NCBI RefSeq assembly: GCF_000196175.1
Contig: NC_005363.1
Coordinates: 434,001-498,000, forward strand
Origin: Bdellovibrio bacteriovorus HD100
Lineage (GTDB): Bacteria; Bdellovibrionota; Bdellovibrionia; Bdellovibrionales; Bdellovibrionaceae
Reading direction: 5' to 3'
Length of the DNA stretch: 64,000 nt
Shown one piece after another: positions 2,989 to 58,573 of this stretch (positions within the stretch are counted from its first letter, which is position 1; every line of letters begins with the position of its first letter). Made by a program: the position numbers and the translations under genes. The notes under the pieces are model-generated. The model did not search any database, had not been told where the DNA came from, and was given only the letters and a program-made list of their open reading frames with translations.

Positions 2989-3648
2989 CTACCCTTTGGC
3001 GGGACGTTCGCCAAATAAAATAGTCCCAAGGCGCACGATTGTGGCGCCTTCCTCAACCGCGACCGGATAGTCGTGACTCGTGCCCATTGACAGCTCATTC
3101 AGCGGATGAACTGTCGTGTCCGTGGTCGTTTTCAGGCGGTCGCGCAGTTGGCGCAGCTCTGCAAAGTAAGGACGTACTTCGGCCCCGGTTTCGGTTAATG
3201 GTGGCATGGTCATCAGGCCATAAATGTGAAGATGGGGCAGTTTCGTCAGTTCGGCCCACTGGTTTTCAAGTGTTTCCGCGGAAAAGCCCTCTTTGCTGGC
3301 TTCGCCTGCCAGATTCACCTGGATCAGGATGTTTTGACTGACGCCTTTTTGTTCGCACTGGCGGCTGATCACCTGAGCCAGTTCCAGAGAGTCCACCGAA
3401 TGAATCAGGTGAAACTTTCCGACCACCAATTTGGCTTTGTTCTTTTGAAGGTGGCCAATCAGATGCCACTGAATATCAGAAAGGTCAGAAAGCACGCTTT
3501 GTTTTTCAAGGGCTTCCTGAACGTAATTTTCACCAAACAGGCGCTGACCCTCGACGTGCAGGGCGCGCACCTTTTCCGCCGGCTGAAGTTTAGAAACGGC
3601 CAGGATCTTCGCGGGTTTTGCTTTTTCTGTGATCTCTTTTAATGCCAT
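2989..3648 (-). CDS. yggS: YggS/PLPBP family pyridoxal-phosphate homeostasis protein
   Basis: The chosen ATG (MALKEITEKAKPAK) gives 219 residues. The open frame continues upstream, but without family similarity. The PLP-binding lysine sits in AVSKLQPAEKV, and other family blocks are visible: FGENYVQE, WHLIGHLQKNKAK, VNLAGEASKEG, GLMTMPP and LSMGTSHDYPVAVEEGAT. The family binds PLP without catalysing a known reaction and buffers vitamin B6 and amino-acid pools. It is the first gene of the leftward yggS-proC-divIVA-yggU cluster, and its start faces the RAYT-like gene across about 100 bp. Confidence 0.93.
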   Translation of the reverse strand: MALKEITEKAKPAKILAVSKLQPAEKVRALHVEGQRLFGENYVQEALEKQSVLSDLSDIQWHLIGHLQKNKAKLVVGKFHLIHSVDSLELAQVISRQCEQKGVSQNILIQVNLAGEASKEGFSAETLENQWAELTKLPHLHIYGLMTMPPLTETGAEVRPYFAELRQLRDRLKTTTDTTVHPLNELSMGTSHDYPVAVEEGATIVRLGTILFGERPAKG

Positions 3649-5307: not shown

Positions 5308-5886
5308 TCAGAATTTGGACAGTAGATTTTTCACCAGGTCGATGGGAAGTCCCACCACATTGTAGAAGGGGCCGTCGAAGCGTTCGATGAATTTTCCACC
5401 CTGTCCCTGAATGCCGTAAGCACCGGCTTTGTCCATGGGTTCGCCGGTGTCTATGTAGGTCCAGATTTCATCATCAGTCAGCTGCCGGAAGTAAATTTTT
5501 GTAGTCTCAGTCTGAGACACTTCCTTGCCCGTGCTGGACTCGACCAGGCAGACCGCCGTGATGACCTCATGATATTTACCAGACAAAAGTTTAAGAATGC
5601 GATAGGCATCCTGACGATCGGCGGGCTTACCCAGGGGGGCCCCATTGAAAATCACCTCGGTGTCGGCGCAAAGCACGATAAACGCGTCTTGCCGGCTGGA
5701 CTTTAGCAGGGGCAAAGCAGCACTCGCTTTTCGTCTGGCGATATCTAAAATCTGATCGTTTACATTCAGGTTTTTGTTAGGAATTTCCGATACTTTAACT
5801 GGAACCACGTCGAATGAAAAACCCGCTTCACTAAGAAGCTGTTTTCGGCGCGGTGACTCTGAGGCCAAGATCAATGCTGGTTTCAT
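5308..5886 (-). CDS. maf: Maf-family nucleotide pyrophosphatase
   Basis: The 192-residue product starts at MKPALILASESPRRKQLL, the hallmark Maf N-terminus. It also has VLCADTEVIF with the metal/catalytic Asp-Thr-Glu region, GKPADRQDAYRIL and DKAGAYGIQGQGG. Maf proteins hydrolyse non-canonical or modified nucleoside triphosphates (dTTP/UTP or methylated GTP) and have been linked to division arrest. The open frame extends farther upstream, but residues before this Met are unrelated to the family and overlap the divergent gene. The start is 28 bp from the tadC-like start on the other strand, so the promoters overlap. Confidence 0.92.
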   Translation of the reverse strand: MKPALILASESPRRKQLLSEAGFSFDVVPVKVSEIPNKNLNVNDQILDIARRKASAALPLLKSSRQDAFIVLCADTEVIFNGAPLGKPADRQDAYRILKLLSGKYHEVITAVCLVESSTGKEVSQTETTKIYFRQLTDDEIWTYIDTGEPMDKAGAYGIQGQGGKFIERFDGPFYNVVGLPIDLVKNLLSKF

Positions 5887-53935: not shown

Positions 53936-54077
53936 TGGGAACCTCCTCAAAGGGGCTGCGTGTGTATGACTGCTGATCTCATTCTGAGACAGAAGGGGGC
54001 ATCTAATCAAGATTATGGTTTGTTAAATTAATTTGAGAACTGGGAACATTAAAACATGAGAATATATTGTGAGGTAC

Positions 54078-54105
54078 TATAGGAACAATGTGGAGGGGCC
54101 GAAAA
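54078..54105 (+). promoter_or_regulatory. Sigma-28-like promoter of copy 1
   Basis: TATA (54078-54081), 16 nt, then GCCGAAAA (54098-54105), resembling FliA promoters (TAAAGTTT-N11-GCCGATAA). The -35 part is weak. The -10 ends 7 nt before the ATG at 54113, as in copies 2 and 3. Confidence 0.4.
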
Positions 54106-54112
54106 GAATACC

Positions 54113-55702
54113 ATGGGGAACCGGTACTTTGGGTTAATATCCCTCTTTTTTTCGGCATTTATGTTCAGCGCGCCGGCGACTGCGGATACGTTTTTAGGCT
54201 GTGCGGAATGGTGCCGGTCCATGTACCTGCCCAAGTCCGGGCAGGCGGATCAATCCCAAATCAGACGCTATGACATGTGCGTGGTGCAGACTCAGAACGA
54301 AGGCCGCTGCGGTGGCACACCTCGTTCTTCCGGTACGACGACCCGGCCGACCCAGCGTCAGCAGGAACCTGCTCAATCTTCCAACTATAATCCTGAACCG
54401 GGAACAGTTCCGTGCGGTGGCCGGTGTCCTTTCAGCGAATGCGTCGATGTGAATGGCAGCGGTCGCGACTATCAATGCCGTATGGATATCATCAATGGAA
54501 CAACCCAGACCGGTGGAAATGACTGTACGTCGCAGTACACGGAATTGCTGAATGAATGTTCCAACGCTGTTCAAGAGACATCCCACACTTGTGATGAAAA
54601 AAATGACTCCGGCATGTCTGGCGTTGCCAACACGGCTTCGCAGCTGGGGCTGATGCTGGGGCAGCAGACCTCCGGAAGCATTCAGTCCGCGTGTTCGCAG
54701 ATGGCCAGTTTCTCTGCGGCAGCCAATGCGGCGGTGGCAGCCTATCGTTTGAATTGTAATAGTGCTTTGGGAACCTGCCGTTCCACTTGCAGCAGGCTGG
54801 TTGAGTTCGTTCAGAACAACCCGACCTGCACCATTCAGGGGTTCCAGGGAACTGCCGGACAAAATGCGATGTTATTGCAAAATGCTGAATCCAAGGCCGA
54901 ACGCTGCGACCAGTTTGAAAGCAAGGTGCAAGAGGCGACTCAAGCCATCAACAACGTGGCAGGCACCATGCGAAATGCAGCCAGTTGCGCGGCAGCCACG
55001 TCCGGCGACAGTGCCCCACTTCCAGAAATCTGTAAAACCAATCCGAACCTTCCGGGATGTGTTGCCACGGGCCCGATGGATTGCACCAAGCCTGAACTTG
55101 CGGGCACCAAAGTCTGCGTGTGTTCGAAGAATCCAACCGATCCCATTTGTATGTCTGAAAACAGCAGTGGTGGATCCACGTTCCTGAGCAGCACCAACCC
55201 AGGGGCGCGCTTGAATACTTCCGGCGTTGATTTGCCGGGTGGTGATTTGCCATCTTTGCCGGGCATTGAGCATGGCAAACGAGGCGCTGGTGGTGCCGGT
55301 GAAGCTGTCGACGGAAAAATGGGTGGCGGTGCAGGCATTTCCAGTTTAGGTGGCGGCGGAGGCGGTGGTGCTGCCGGGGCCGGCGAAGGTGGCGGAGCCG
55401 AGGGCGAAGACGGTGGTCACGCGGTGAATGCCGGATTCTATGGCGGCGGTGGATCCTTTGGTGGATACGGTGGCGGCAGCGGTGAAGGCCGGGTCGGACA
55501 AGGTCAGGCAAATCAAGGCGGAGTCGCCGGCAAAAATGGTTCGCCGGATCTGCGCCAGTTCCTGCCTGGTGGAAAGTACGATCCAAAAGCCCGCGGCGTT
55601 GCGGGCACCGGAGGACCTGACGGTATTACGGGGCCCCATTCAAATATCTGGAAGAAAATTCAGAATCGTTATCAGGTTCTGGCTCCGACGTTGATTCCAT
55701 AA
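54113..55702 (+). CDS. Tandem Cys/Gly-rich secreted paralogue, copy 1
   Basis: This 529-residue protein has a signal peptide (to about residue 25, FMFSAPATADT). A variable Cys-containing N-terminal part (to about 140) precedes the family core, visible as CDEKNDSGMSGVANTASQ, a stretch of repeats with AANAAVAAYRLNC, and C-rich segments ending VCVCSKNPTDPICMSE. A Gly-rich region (about 385-470) follows, then a conserved C-terminus with PDLRQFLPGGKYDPKARG and NRYQVLAPTLIP. It is the longest and most divergent copy. I do not recognise a named family. Signal peptide, Cys and Gly content suggest a secreted or surface protein. Confidence 0.7.
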   Translation: MGNRYFGLISLFFSAFMFSAPATADTFLGCAEWCRSMYLPKSGQADQSQIRRYDMCVVQTQNEGRCGGTPRSSGTTTRPTQRQQEPAQSSNYNPEPGTVPCGGRCPFSECVDVNGSGRDYQCRMDIINGTTQTGGNDCTSQYTELLNECSNAVQETSHTCDEKNDSGMSGVANTASQLGLMLGQQTSGSIQSACSQMASFSAAANAAVAAYRLNCNSALGTCRSTCSRLVEFVQNNPTCTIQGFQGTAGQNAMLLQNAESKAERCDQFESKVQEATQAINNVAGTMRNAASCAAATSGDSAPLPEICKTNPNLPGCVATGPMDCTKPELAGTKVCVCSKNPTDPICMSENSSGGSTFLSSTNPGARLNTSGVDLPGGDLPSLPGIEHGKRGAGGAGEAVDGKMGGGAGISSLGGGGGGGAAGAGEGGGAEGEDGGHAVNAGFYGGGGSFGGYGGGSGEGRVGQGQANQGGVAGKNGSPDLRQFLPGGKYDPKARGVAGTGGPDGITGPHSNIWKKIQNRYQVLAPTLIP

Positions 55703-55731
55703 TCTCACTCTGAGACTTCGTTATACTTTGG

Positions 55732-55759
55732 TAAAGTTCCCATTTGGAATTACCGAACA
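55732..55759 (+). promoter_or_regulatory. Sigma-28-like promoter of copy 2
   Basis: TAAAGTTC (55732-55739), then ACCGAACA at 55752-55759, with 16 nt between TAAA and the -10. It lies in a block conserved with copy 3 (TGAGAC, 7 nt, TAC, then TTGGTAAAGTTC). The -10 ends 8 nt before ATG 55768. Confidence 0.5.
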
Positions 55760-55767
55760 GTTTATTT

Positions 55768-57129
55768 ATGGGAATGAGATCTTTTCTATCAATCAGCATG
55801 TTGTTCGCGCTTTCGATAAGTCTCTTCTCTGTGGAGGCCGAGGCTCGCCGGTGCAGGGCTCAGTGTGCCCAGGGCTACACCTGTTTTATGCCGGATCCGA
55901 CGGATCCCAATGGTCGCAACGACATGTGTGTGGCCTCCAACCAGGTCAGCAACACAGATTGTGTTTCGCAGTACAACCAGCTTGCTGAGCAGTGCCGTGC
56001 GCAGGTTACTGACACCACTTATACTTGTGATGAAAAGAATGACTCGGGCATGAGTGGTATTGCCAATTCAGCCTCCCAGCTTAGTTTGATGTTCGGTCAG
56101 CAGACCGCGGGAAGCATTCAGGCAGCGTGTTCAAAAATGGCTTCCTTCAGTTCGGCGGCGAATGCAGCAGTGGCGGCATACCGTTTGACCTGTCAATCCT
56201 CGATCACCAGCTGCCATTCGGCCTGTGATCAGGTTGTCGAATATGTCAGCAGCAATTCAGCTTGTTTGGATGCGGCAGGTGGCGCCGGGTCTTCGGCTCA
56301 GATGAGATCCTCTGCAGAAAGTGCGGCCGGGCGCTGCAATGACTTCGATGCGAAGGTGGCGGAAGCCAATCAGGCGATCAATAATTTCGCGGGCACCATG
56401 CAGAACGCGGCCCAGTGTGCATCTTTGACTTCCGGTGACAGCACGGCTTTGCCAGAGCTGTGCAAAGCCAATCCTTCTTTGCCAGGCTGTGAAGGCGTGG
56501 CGGCGGTGGATTGTACAAATCCCGCGATGTCGGGAAATAAAGTCTGTGTGTGTGCGAAGAATCCTTCCGATCCTGTTTGTATGAGTGAAAAAAGCTCTGC
56601 GGGTTCCACTTTTATCAGCAGCACCAATCCGGGTTCTCGCCTTTCAACTAATGGCGCGGACCTTTCCGGTGGCGATCTGCCAAGTCTTCCTTCCATTCTT
56701 CCGGGCAAACCAGGTTCTGGTGGTGCCGGTGAAGCTGTCGACGGAAAACAAGGCGGCGGCGCAGGCATTTCCAGCATGGGTGGCGGCGGCGGAGGCGGGG
56801 CTTCCGGTGGCGCTGCAGGCGAAGAGGGCCTTGAAGACGGTGTTCAGGTGAATGCCGGATTCTATGGTGGTGGCGGATCCTTTGGGGGTTCCGGCATGGG
56901 CAGTGGTGGTGGTGAGCGCGGAGCTGCCGGCATGGCTGGTGCGGCGGGCGCAGCCAAAGGCAAGGGGGCGCCGGATCTGCGCCAGTTCCTGCCTGGTGGT
57001 AAGTTCGATCCCAAATCCCGCGGTCTTGCTGGCAACGGCGGACCGGATGGAATTACGGGGCCTCATTCCAATATCTGGCTGAAAATTCAGAACAGATACC
57101 AGGTATTGAGTCCGACTTTGATGCCTTAG
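55768..57129 (+). CDS. Tandem Cys/Gly-rich secreted paralogue, copy 2
   Basis: This 453-residue protein starts at ATG 55768 (MGMRSF); a second ATG at 55774 is possible, but 55768 has the same distance from its promoter as copy 3. No Shine-Dalgarno sequence is visible. The order is signal peptide, short Cys-containing N-terminus, core CDEKNDSGMSGIANSASQ, Cys-rich part ending VCVCAKNPSDPVCMSE, Gly-rich segment, conserved tail with PDLRQFLPGGKFDPKSRG and NRYQVLSPTLMP. About 500 bp (56391-56894) are ~96% identical to copy 3. Function unknown. Confidence 0.7.
   Translation: MGMRSFLSISMLFALSISLFSVEAEARRCRAQCAQGYTCFMPDPTDPNGRNDMCVASNQVSNTDCVSQYNQLAEQCRAQVTDTTYTCDEKNDSGMSGIANSASQLSLMFGQQTAGSIQAACSKMASFSSAANAAVAAYRLTCQSSITSCHSACDQVVEYVSSNSACLDAAGGAGSSAQMRSSAESAAGRCNDFDAKVAEANQAINNFAGTMQNAAQCASLTSGDSTALPELCKANPSLPGCEGVAAVDCTNPAMSGNKVCVCAKNPSDPVCMSEKSSAGSTFISSTNPGSRLSTNGADLSGGDLPSLPSILPGKPGSGGAGEAVDGKQGGGAGISSMGGGGGGGASGGAAGEEGLEDGVQVNAGFYGGGGSFGGSGMGSGGGERGAAGMAGAAGAAKGKGAPDLRQFLPGGKFDPKSRGLAGNGGPDGITGPHSNIWLKIQNRYQVLSPTLMP
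56391..56894 (+). repeat. Near-identical block shared by copies 2 and 3 (first copy)
   Basis: The sequence 56391-56894 corresponds, without indels, to 57835-58338 at a constant offset of 1444. By hand count of 480 bases (56401-56880) there are about 19 differences, with a run of more than 180 identical bases around 56681-56865. Confidence 0.75.
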
Positions 57130-57158
57130 TCTTAAATTGAGACGATTCTCTACCTTGG

Positions 57159-57186
57159 TAAAGTTCTCATGTTGAAATGCCGATCA
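57159..57186 (+). promoter_or_regulatory. Sigma-28-like promoter of copy 3
   Basis: TAAAGTTC (57159-57166) and GCCGATCA (57179-57186), with 16 nt between TAAA and the -10, close to the FliA pattern TAAAGTTT-N11-GCCGATAA. The -10 ends 7 nt before ATG 57194, predicting a transcript that starts at or beside the ATG. It is the strongest of the three matches. Confidence 0.55.
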
Positions 57187-57193
57187 GGCTTCC

Positions 57194-58573
57194 ATGAGAT
57201 TCAGTGCATTGCTCGCGATAAAATCTTTATTCATATTTCCATTTTTCTTATTCGCGAATGACGCGAAAGCGGCGGCGACGTGCACGCCCGCCTGCCCCGG
57301 TGGATCCAGCTGCTTCATTAATGAATCGGGACAGGCTCAGTGCACGCCCAATGACAGCTTCATGGGACCGCCAGCGCCCGCAAGAAATGGCATGGTCACG
57401 TGCAGCTCCCAACTGGGGCTAATCATGGAACAGTGCCGGGAGCAGATTTCAGAAACATCTTATTCCTGCGACGAAAAAAATGACTCCGGCATGAGTGGCA
57501 TTGCCAACACGGCCTCTCAGCTCAGTTTGATGTTCGGTCAGCAGACGGCGGGAAGCATTCAGGCCGCTTGTTCCAAGATGGCCTCTTTCAGTTCGGCCGC
57601 CAATGCGGCGGTCGCCGCCTATCGTTTGAATTGTCAGTCTGCCATTACCAGTTGTCGATCAGCCTGTGATCAGGCGGTTGAGTTTGCCCAGCAAAATGCG
57701 GCCTGTCTGGATGCCGCCGCCGGAGGCACAGGTATCAGCCGTCAAGCTGTGGCTTCGGCTGAAAATTCAGCGAAACGCTGCAATGACTTTGACTCTAAAG
57801 TTCAAGAAGCCAATCAGGCGATCAACAACTTCGCGGGCACTATGCAGAACGCGGCTCAGTGTGCATCTTTGACTTCCGGTGACAGCACGGCTTTGCCTGA
57901 GCTGTGCAAAGCCAATCCTTCTTTGCCAGGCTGTGAAGGCGTGGCGGCGGTGGATTGTACAAATCCCGCGATGTCGGGAAATAAAGTCTGTGTGTGCGCA
58001 AAGAATCCCTCAGACCCTGTGTGTATGAGTGAAAAAAATTCTGCGGGTTCTACGTTCGTCAGCAGCACCAATCCGGGTTCTCGCCTTTCAACTAATGGCG
58101 CGGACCTTTCCGGTGGCGACTTGCCAAGTCTTCCTTCCATTCTTCCGGGCAAACCAGGTTCTGGTGGTGCCGGTGAAGCTGTCGACGGAAAACAAGGCGG
58201 CGGCGCAGGCATTTCCAGCATGGGTGGCGGCGGCGGAGGCGGGGCTTCCGGTGGCGCTGCAGGCGAAGAGGGCCTTGAAGACGGTGTTCAGGTGAATGCC
58301 GGATTCTATGGCGGTGGTGGCTCCTTTGGGGGTTCCGGCTATGGTGGTGGCAGTGGTGAGCGCAATGCCGCAGGCATGGCGGGCGCAGCTGGTGCTGCCA
58401 AAGGCAAAGGTGGACCTGATTTAAGCAAGTTCCTTCCCGGTGGACAGTATGATCCGAAGTTGCGTGGCTTGGCAGGCAGCGGAGGCCCGGATGGAATCAC
58501 CGGACCGCATTCCAACATCTGGCAGAAGATTCAAAACCGCTATCGCGTGATGAGTCCGACTCTTCTGCCTTAA
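57194..58573 (+). CDS. Tandem Cys/Gly-rich secreted paralogue, copy 3
   Basis: This 459-residue protein starts MRFSALLAIKSLFIF (signal peptide), with a short N-terminus rich in Cys (AACTPACPGG-like region TCTPACPGGSSCF). The family core with CDEKNDSGMSGIANTASQ, the Cys-rich part VCVCAKNPSDPVCMSE, the Gly-rich segment and the tail PDLSKFLPGGQYDPKLRG and NRYRVMSPTLLP follow. ATG 57194 has only a weak AGG at 5-7 nt. It is closest to copy 2. The family was not recognised; it is probably a secreted or surface structural protein of unknown role. Confidence 0.7.
   Translation: MRFSALLAIKSLFIFPFFLFANDAKAAATCTPACPGGSSCFINESGQAQCTPNDSFMGPPAPARNGMVTCSSQLGLIMEQCREQISETSYSCDEKNDSGMSGIANTASQLSLMFGQQTAGSIQAACSKMASFSSAANAAVAAYRLNCQSAITSCRSACDQAVEFAQQNAACLDAAAGGTGISRQAVASAENSAKRCNDFDSKVQEANQAINNFAGTMQNAAQCASLTSGDSTALPELCKANPSLPGCEGVAAVDCTNPAMSGNKVCVCAKNPSDPVCMSEKNSAGSTFVSSTNPGSRLSTNGADLSGGDLPSLPSILPGKPGSGGAGEAVDGKQGGGAGISSMGGGGGGGASGGAAGEEGLEDGVQVNAGFYGGGGSFGGSGYGGGSGERNAAGMAGAAGAAKGKGGPDLSKFLPGGQYDPKLRGLAGSGGPDGITGPHSNIWQKIQNRYRVMSPTLLP
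57835..58338 (+). repeat. Near-identical block shared by copies 2 and 3 (second copy)
   Basis: Partner of 56391-56894; the identity falls sharply both upstream and downstream of this block, which suggests recent gene conversion. Confidence 0.75.

Follow-up and report, generated by a model that had tools for sequence, protein, structure and literature searches.

Can a flagellar sigma factor promoter lie so close to a start codon that the messenger would begin with the AUG itself? The question is raised by three tandem paralogous genes of Bdellovibrio bacteriovorus HD100, before each of which a first-pass annotation had placed a sigma-28-type promoter directly next to the ATG. The genes lie in the window analysed here, the whole stretch of 64,000 nucleotides at 434001-498000 of the HD100 genome (3,782,950 bases, single contig), and positions are those of the window unless the genome is named. 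It was judged very probable that the paralogues are attack-phase genes with their own FliA promoters and leaderless mRNAs, and that they are members of a class of about 20-25 genes.

Three tandem paralogues

The three genes lie on the forward strand, flanked by a glutathione-peroxidase-like gene and an aspartate-kinase-like gene (both named by eye). Copy 1 (54113..55702) would encode a Cys-rich and Gly-rich protein of 529 aa with a signal peptide, copy 2 (55768..57129) a protein of 453 aa and copy 3 (57194..58573) one of 459 aa. The start codon was ATG in all three, with no GUG or UUG. Identity to copy 3 was 79% for copy 2 and 59% for copy 1. The proteins share one plan, in which an N-terminal signal peptide is followed by a Cys-containing helical middle and then by a stretch rich in Gly, and the C terminus is conserved (GPHSNIW.KIQNRY.V..PTL.P). 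A fourth and distant HD100 paralogue (at 134 kb, 31% identity) has the same promoter type, 22 nt from its ATG and with an AGGGGA Shine-Dalgarno (SD) sequence between them, and would thus be leadered.

A sample of 60 genomes drawn from the genus, family and order had family members in 47. No Pfam family was assigned to the paralogues, the match to DUF885 (E 0.1) being noise, and the PDB search returned no solved relative. The AlphaFold model was poor (mean pLDDT 50), with helices at residues 70-228 and a mostly disordered remainder. No relevant paper came up when the literature was searched under presumed Bd locus tags.

FliA-type promoters

The attack-phase FliA consensus of HD100 is TTAAG-N16-CCGATA, found at 92 of 140 mapped promoters (PMC3627812). 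In this frame copy 1 reads TATAG (54078..54082), N16, CCGAAA (54099..54104), N8 and ATG; copy 2 reads TAAAG (55732..55736), N16, CCGAAC (55753..55758), N9 and ATG; and copy 3 reads TAAAG (57159..57163), N16, CCGATC (57180..57185), N8 and ATG. The spacer of 16 nt was exact in all three, the -35 matched at 3/5 to 4/5 positions, and the -10 matched at 5/6, 4/6 and 5/6 in copies 1, 2 and 3. The weak points are the -35 of copy 1, the imperfect -10s of copies 2 and 3, and the distance of 9 nt instead of 8 in copy 2. One clear FliA gene was identified in HD100 (280.9 bits, above the family cut-off).

The first-pass annotation had used a slightly different frame, with TATA at 54078-54081, N16, GCCGAAAA at 54098-54105 and 7 nt to the ATG at 54113 for copy 1; TAAA at 55732-55735, N16, ACCGAACA at 55752-55759 and 8 nt to the ATG at 55768 for copy 2; and TAAA at 57159-57162, N16, GCCGATCA at 57179-57186 and 7 nt to the ATG at 57194 for copy 3. 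All of these coordinates, spacings and distances were exact on re-reading the sequence. Its TAAA-like -35 was present in copies 2 and 3, while copy 1 has TATA(G), and the orthologues of copy 1 have TGTAG or TATAG. Its assignment to sigma-28 also stood: the three sites fit the mapped consensus with exact spacing and FliA is encoded, so that identification as sigma-28 (FliA) attack-phase promoters is supported at the level of sequence.

The same promoter type recurs in the family: 50 homologous frames were examined, and in 43 of them a good -10 precedes the ATG by 7-10 nt. The distance was 8 nt in 21, 9 nt in 17, 10 nt in three and 7 nt in two of them, a tally that leans to short distances since the best-scoring ATG/-10 pair per frame was chosen within 4-15 nt. 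The combined match of -35, spacer and -10 is not explained by this bias. One copy without such a promoter (L148, frame at 3352) stands, by eye, close behind its neighbour, and its ATG is preceded by purine-rich sequence.

Predicted transcription start

The distance from the -10 to the transcription start site (TSS) was calibrated on three FliA-type small RNAs listed in Table 2 of PMC3627812, read against the genome sequence; the TSS filter described in that paper required sites to be 'upstream of a gene'. Exactly 8 nt lie between the -10 hexamer and the published +1 of APsRNA6 and APsRNA7, whereas the listed start of APsRNA3 is 12 nt past the hexamer, counter to this value. In Campylobacter jejuni, sigma-28 starts were mapped 6-8 nt past CGATwt (PMC3847290), corresponding to about 7-9 nt in the CCGATA frame. 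With 8 nt as in APsRNA6 and APsRNA7, the predicted +1 would be the A of the ATG in copy 1 (54113) and copy 3 (57194), and in copy 2 either the corresponding A (55768) or the preceding base (55767).

Of 71 non-redundant N8 sites, 62 had a pyrimidine (C or T) directly before the ATG, as would be expected if the A of the ATG is +1; in a crude background the count was 109 of 188 ATG starts. At N9 sites a pyrimidine was found at position -2 in 17 of 20, which suggests that the initiator keeps its spacing to the -10.

Each paralogue would thus be transcribed in the attack phase from its own FliA (sigma-28) promoter, a step that draws on sequence together with published TSS data for other genes. FliA-RNA polymerase would start on the A of the AUG or no more than 1 nt away from it, giving an mRNA without leader and without SD site, and at the translation step, we infer, ribosomes would recognise the 5'-terminal AUG and start without SD. 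Leaderless mRNAs in general are translated from starts without SD. They have been reviewed in PMC9031893. For the three paralogues, a leaderless mRNA is strongly predicted rather than measured; the same prediction in the first-pass annotation gains support from the two small RNAs that start 8 nt past the -10 and from a geometry kept across the genus.

Shine-Dalgarno sequences and start codons

That none of the three starts has a good SD sequence at the usual distance was borne out, with the qualification that SD comparison is affected by crude start calls and by the -10 itself, which occupies part of the SD zone. Copy 2 has no SD. The sole candidate in copy 3 is an AGG at 5 nt from the ATG; it would be no SD in the predicted transcript since it would fall in the untranscribed discriminator. 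Upstream of copy 1, GGAGGGG is present 14-20 nt from the ATG, inside the promoter spacer; it was rejected as an SD because it is at least 14 nt from the ATG and is not conserved in the orthologues. Copy 3 has an in-frame stop (57173-57175), and no other start exists between this stop and the ATG.

The start context is strongly conserved in the family as ATGGGAATG or ATGGGGAA(T/C/A), giving Met-Gly-Met or Met-Gly-Asn/Lys (54113, 55768 and homologues). This context was absent from the other genes of the N8 class described below.

A genome-wide class in HD100

The loose motif TAAA-N14-18-GCCGA was not enriched in the whole genome (171 matches, compared with 206 for the reversed motif), and the hexamers by themselves are therefore weak evidence. 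When the distance to the ATG was included, TNNAG-N16-CCGA-N9..11-ATG was found 44 times in HD100 compared with 13 in the control. Among the 56 ATGs located 0-30 nt after TNNAG-N16-CCGAWA, 15 were at exactly 8 nt, with about 1.4 at each other position (Poisson P about 2e-11 for the single-position peak). Frames of 60 aa or longer are opened by the ATG at 26 N8 sites, two N7 sites and three N9 sites.

After frames running through the promoter were removed, 25 genes of at least 90 aa were left, one of which (L226, by eye a MutY-like internal start) is probably a false member. The N8 class of HD100, searched with ATG starts only, thus holds about 24 genes including the three paralogues (roughly 20-25). 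Lipoproteins and proteins that are secreted or at the surface make up most of it: by eye, a signal peptide or lipobox was recognised in 18, and a membrane segment in a further three. The layout is therefore a genome-wide class, and also a clade-wide one (see below), which the first-pass annotation had missed. That annotation had held that a consistent geometry in three copies makes chance less likely: the enrichment with ATG distance upholds this, while the independence of the copies was overstated, since copies 2 and 3 have their upstream sequence in common through duplication.

Two PilZ-domain proteins, candidate c-di-GMP receptors, and one protein of 1416 aa are in the class. The PilZ genes (L172 and L178) have a FliA promoter 8-9 nt before the ATG, at genome positions 953822-953859 (-) and 1386324-1386362 (+). 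The N8 layout of the 1416 aa protein is at 2499233-2499270 (-) (frame L245:989-5236); this protein gave weak matches to the Bd2133 adhesive fibre (E 6.5e-5) and to a 'cell wall surface anchor family' chain. Two further FliA-N8-ATG sites (L236 and L237), at HD100 742645-742682 (+) and 1176922-1176959 (+), are almost identical in sequence in many members of the genus, and the site at 1176922 lies before the gene of an RDD-family membrane protein (L174).

Conservation in the order and phylum

Relatives were searched with TNNAG-N16-CCGATA-N7..9-ATG, using the reversed pattern and an offset of N14..16 as controls. In the order (119 genomes) 808 sites were found, compared with 64 for the reversed pattern and 160 for the shifted distance, the latter control being conservative because several of its matches are the second ATG of N8 or N9 genes. 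The corresponding numbers (sites, reversed, N14..16) were 211, 9 and 35 in 20 genomes of the genus, 190, 15 and 36 in other genera of the family, and 407, 40 and 89 in other families of the order; in the phylum outside the order there were 412 sites vs 46. Among 139 listed matches in other members of the genus, 99 were N8, 24 N9 and 16 N7. The layout is widespread in the phylum.

Alternative explanations

A very short leader would leave the FliA promoters real and place +1 at 2-6 nt upstream of the ATG, so that translation would be SD-independent without being strictly leaderless. Start choice of sigma-28 does vary by 1-2 nt, and APsRNA3 illustrates that listed starts vary; the N8 mapped in the other two small RNAs, the ATG peak at one position and the pyrimidine-A step at the ATG speak for the A itself, and short leaders are considered unlikely. 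A leader of 6-7 nt would also result if the real start were the second ATG of ATGGGAATG, a context present in 18 of 43 homologues including copy 2. At the place of the second ATG of its orthologues, however, copy 3 has TTC, and alignment of the frames is gapless from the first ATG onwards. This speaks for the first ATG as the start; many genes of the wider class, moreover, lack a second ATG. A downstream start was thus given very little weight.

If instead the CCGA elements were not operative, copies 2 and 3 would be expressed by read-through from copy 1 or from another promoter, with leadered translation. The short intergenic gaps (65 and 64 nt), in which no terminator-like site was found, would suit this explanation, but each copy has kept its own promoter in other species, and sigma-70-like sites, tried as another promoter, were no more frequent in the region than by chance; the probability assigned to it is very low. 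Chance resemblance multiplied by gene duplication could appeal to the loose motif, not enriched genome-wide, and to copies 2 and 3 as recent duplicates; against the strong enrichment with ATG distance in HD100 and in the 119 genomes it is extremely improbable. FliA promoters with leaderless mRNAs thus stay the preferred reading.

Relation to known systems

Neither FliA control of attack-phase genes nor the existence of leaderless mRNAs is new. FliA has been reported as an essential, central attack-phase regulator in B. bacteriovorus (PMC5430801), and in HD100 it controls attack-phase secreted and surface proteins (PMC3627812). The FliA regulon described there (Karunker et al. 2013) is from the same genome and has the same -35 and -10 with N16; in the available text of that paper the word leaderless is absent, and its passages on FliA give no fixed distance from the -10 to the ATG. 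What looks new here, from sequence, is that part of the FliA attack-phase set appears leaderless. No report of this combination came up in the main text of openly available papers, searched for leaderless mRNAs in Bdellovibrio and for a link of leaderless mRNAs to FliA or flagella.

The leaderless mRNAs of C. jejuni and Helicobacter pylori (PMC3847290) resemble the present case in having the -10 directly before the ATG and no SD, and were predicted by the same logic. Those genes have sigma-70 -10s (TAnAaT), whereas a sigma-28 -10 is present here, and their leaderless set is poorly conserved between species, whereas the present layout is conserved across the phylum. In Mycobacterium tuberculosis, leaderless transcripts are described as a regular class, studied in replicating and non-replicating states (PMC3898074). 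The non-replicating state resembles the non-replicating attack phase of Bdellovibrio. M. tuberculosis belongs to a different phylum, and we take its case to be one of general leaderlessness, not of a flagellar-sigma gene set.

A wider proposal, which we hold only tentatively, is that part of the flagellar-sigma regulon may be leaderless as a rule in Bdellovibrionota, where the promoter would set both the timing of transcription and the mode of translation and would give non-growing attack cells an SD-free route to surface and secreted proteins. If the conserved part of the regulon is leaderless, a single short element would unite transcriptional with translational control, and the way in which non-growing predators translate their mRNAs would become testable. 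A promoter toolkit for Bdellovibrio takes the roughly 100 bp that precede the start codon and adds an RBS (PMC12622784), and this RBS would give a leaderless gene another initiation route. The N8 rule could also serve the re-annotation of start codons.

A palindrome near the promoters

A palindrome, (G)TCTCA-N3-TGAGA(C), was found upstream of the paralogues: TCTCATTCTGAGA at 53977..53989 before copy 1, where it is common to the divergent glutathione-peroxidase-like gene, TCTCACTCTGAGA at 55703..55715 before copy 2, and by alignment a degenerate form, GTCTTAAATTGAGAC, at 57129..57143 before copy 3. The core TCTCA-N3-TGAGA occurs three times in the window (0.12 expected); the occurrence at 5505 falls inside the coding frame of a Maf-like protein, and no link between it and these promoters was made. 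Several FliA-like promoters, those of copies 1 and 2 among them, have the core about 9-95 bp upstream, in HD100 often at 10-60 bp; this association is only suggestive because the loci were partly picked by the FliA motif. In an unbiased 240 kb sample, a FliA-like site was within 130 bp at three of five palindromes. The palindrome is possibly an operator for a regulator, and further sites were found at L043:5663, L096:1564, L085:1562 and L012:1528, and also before homologues in relatives.
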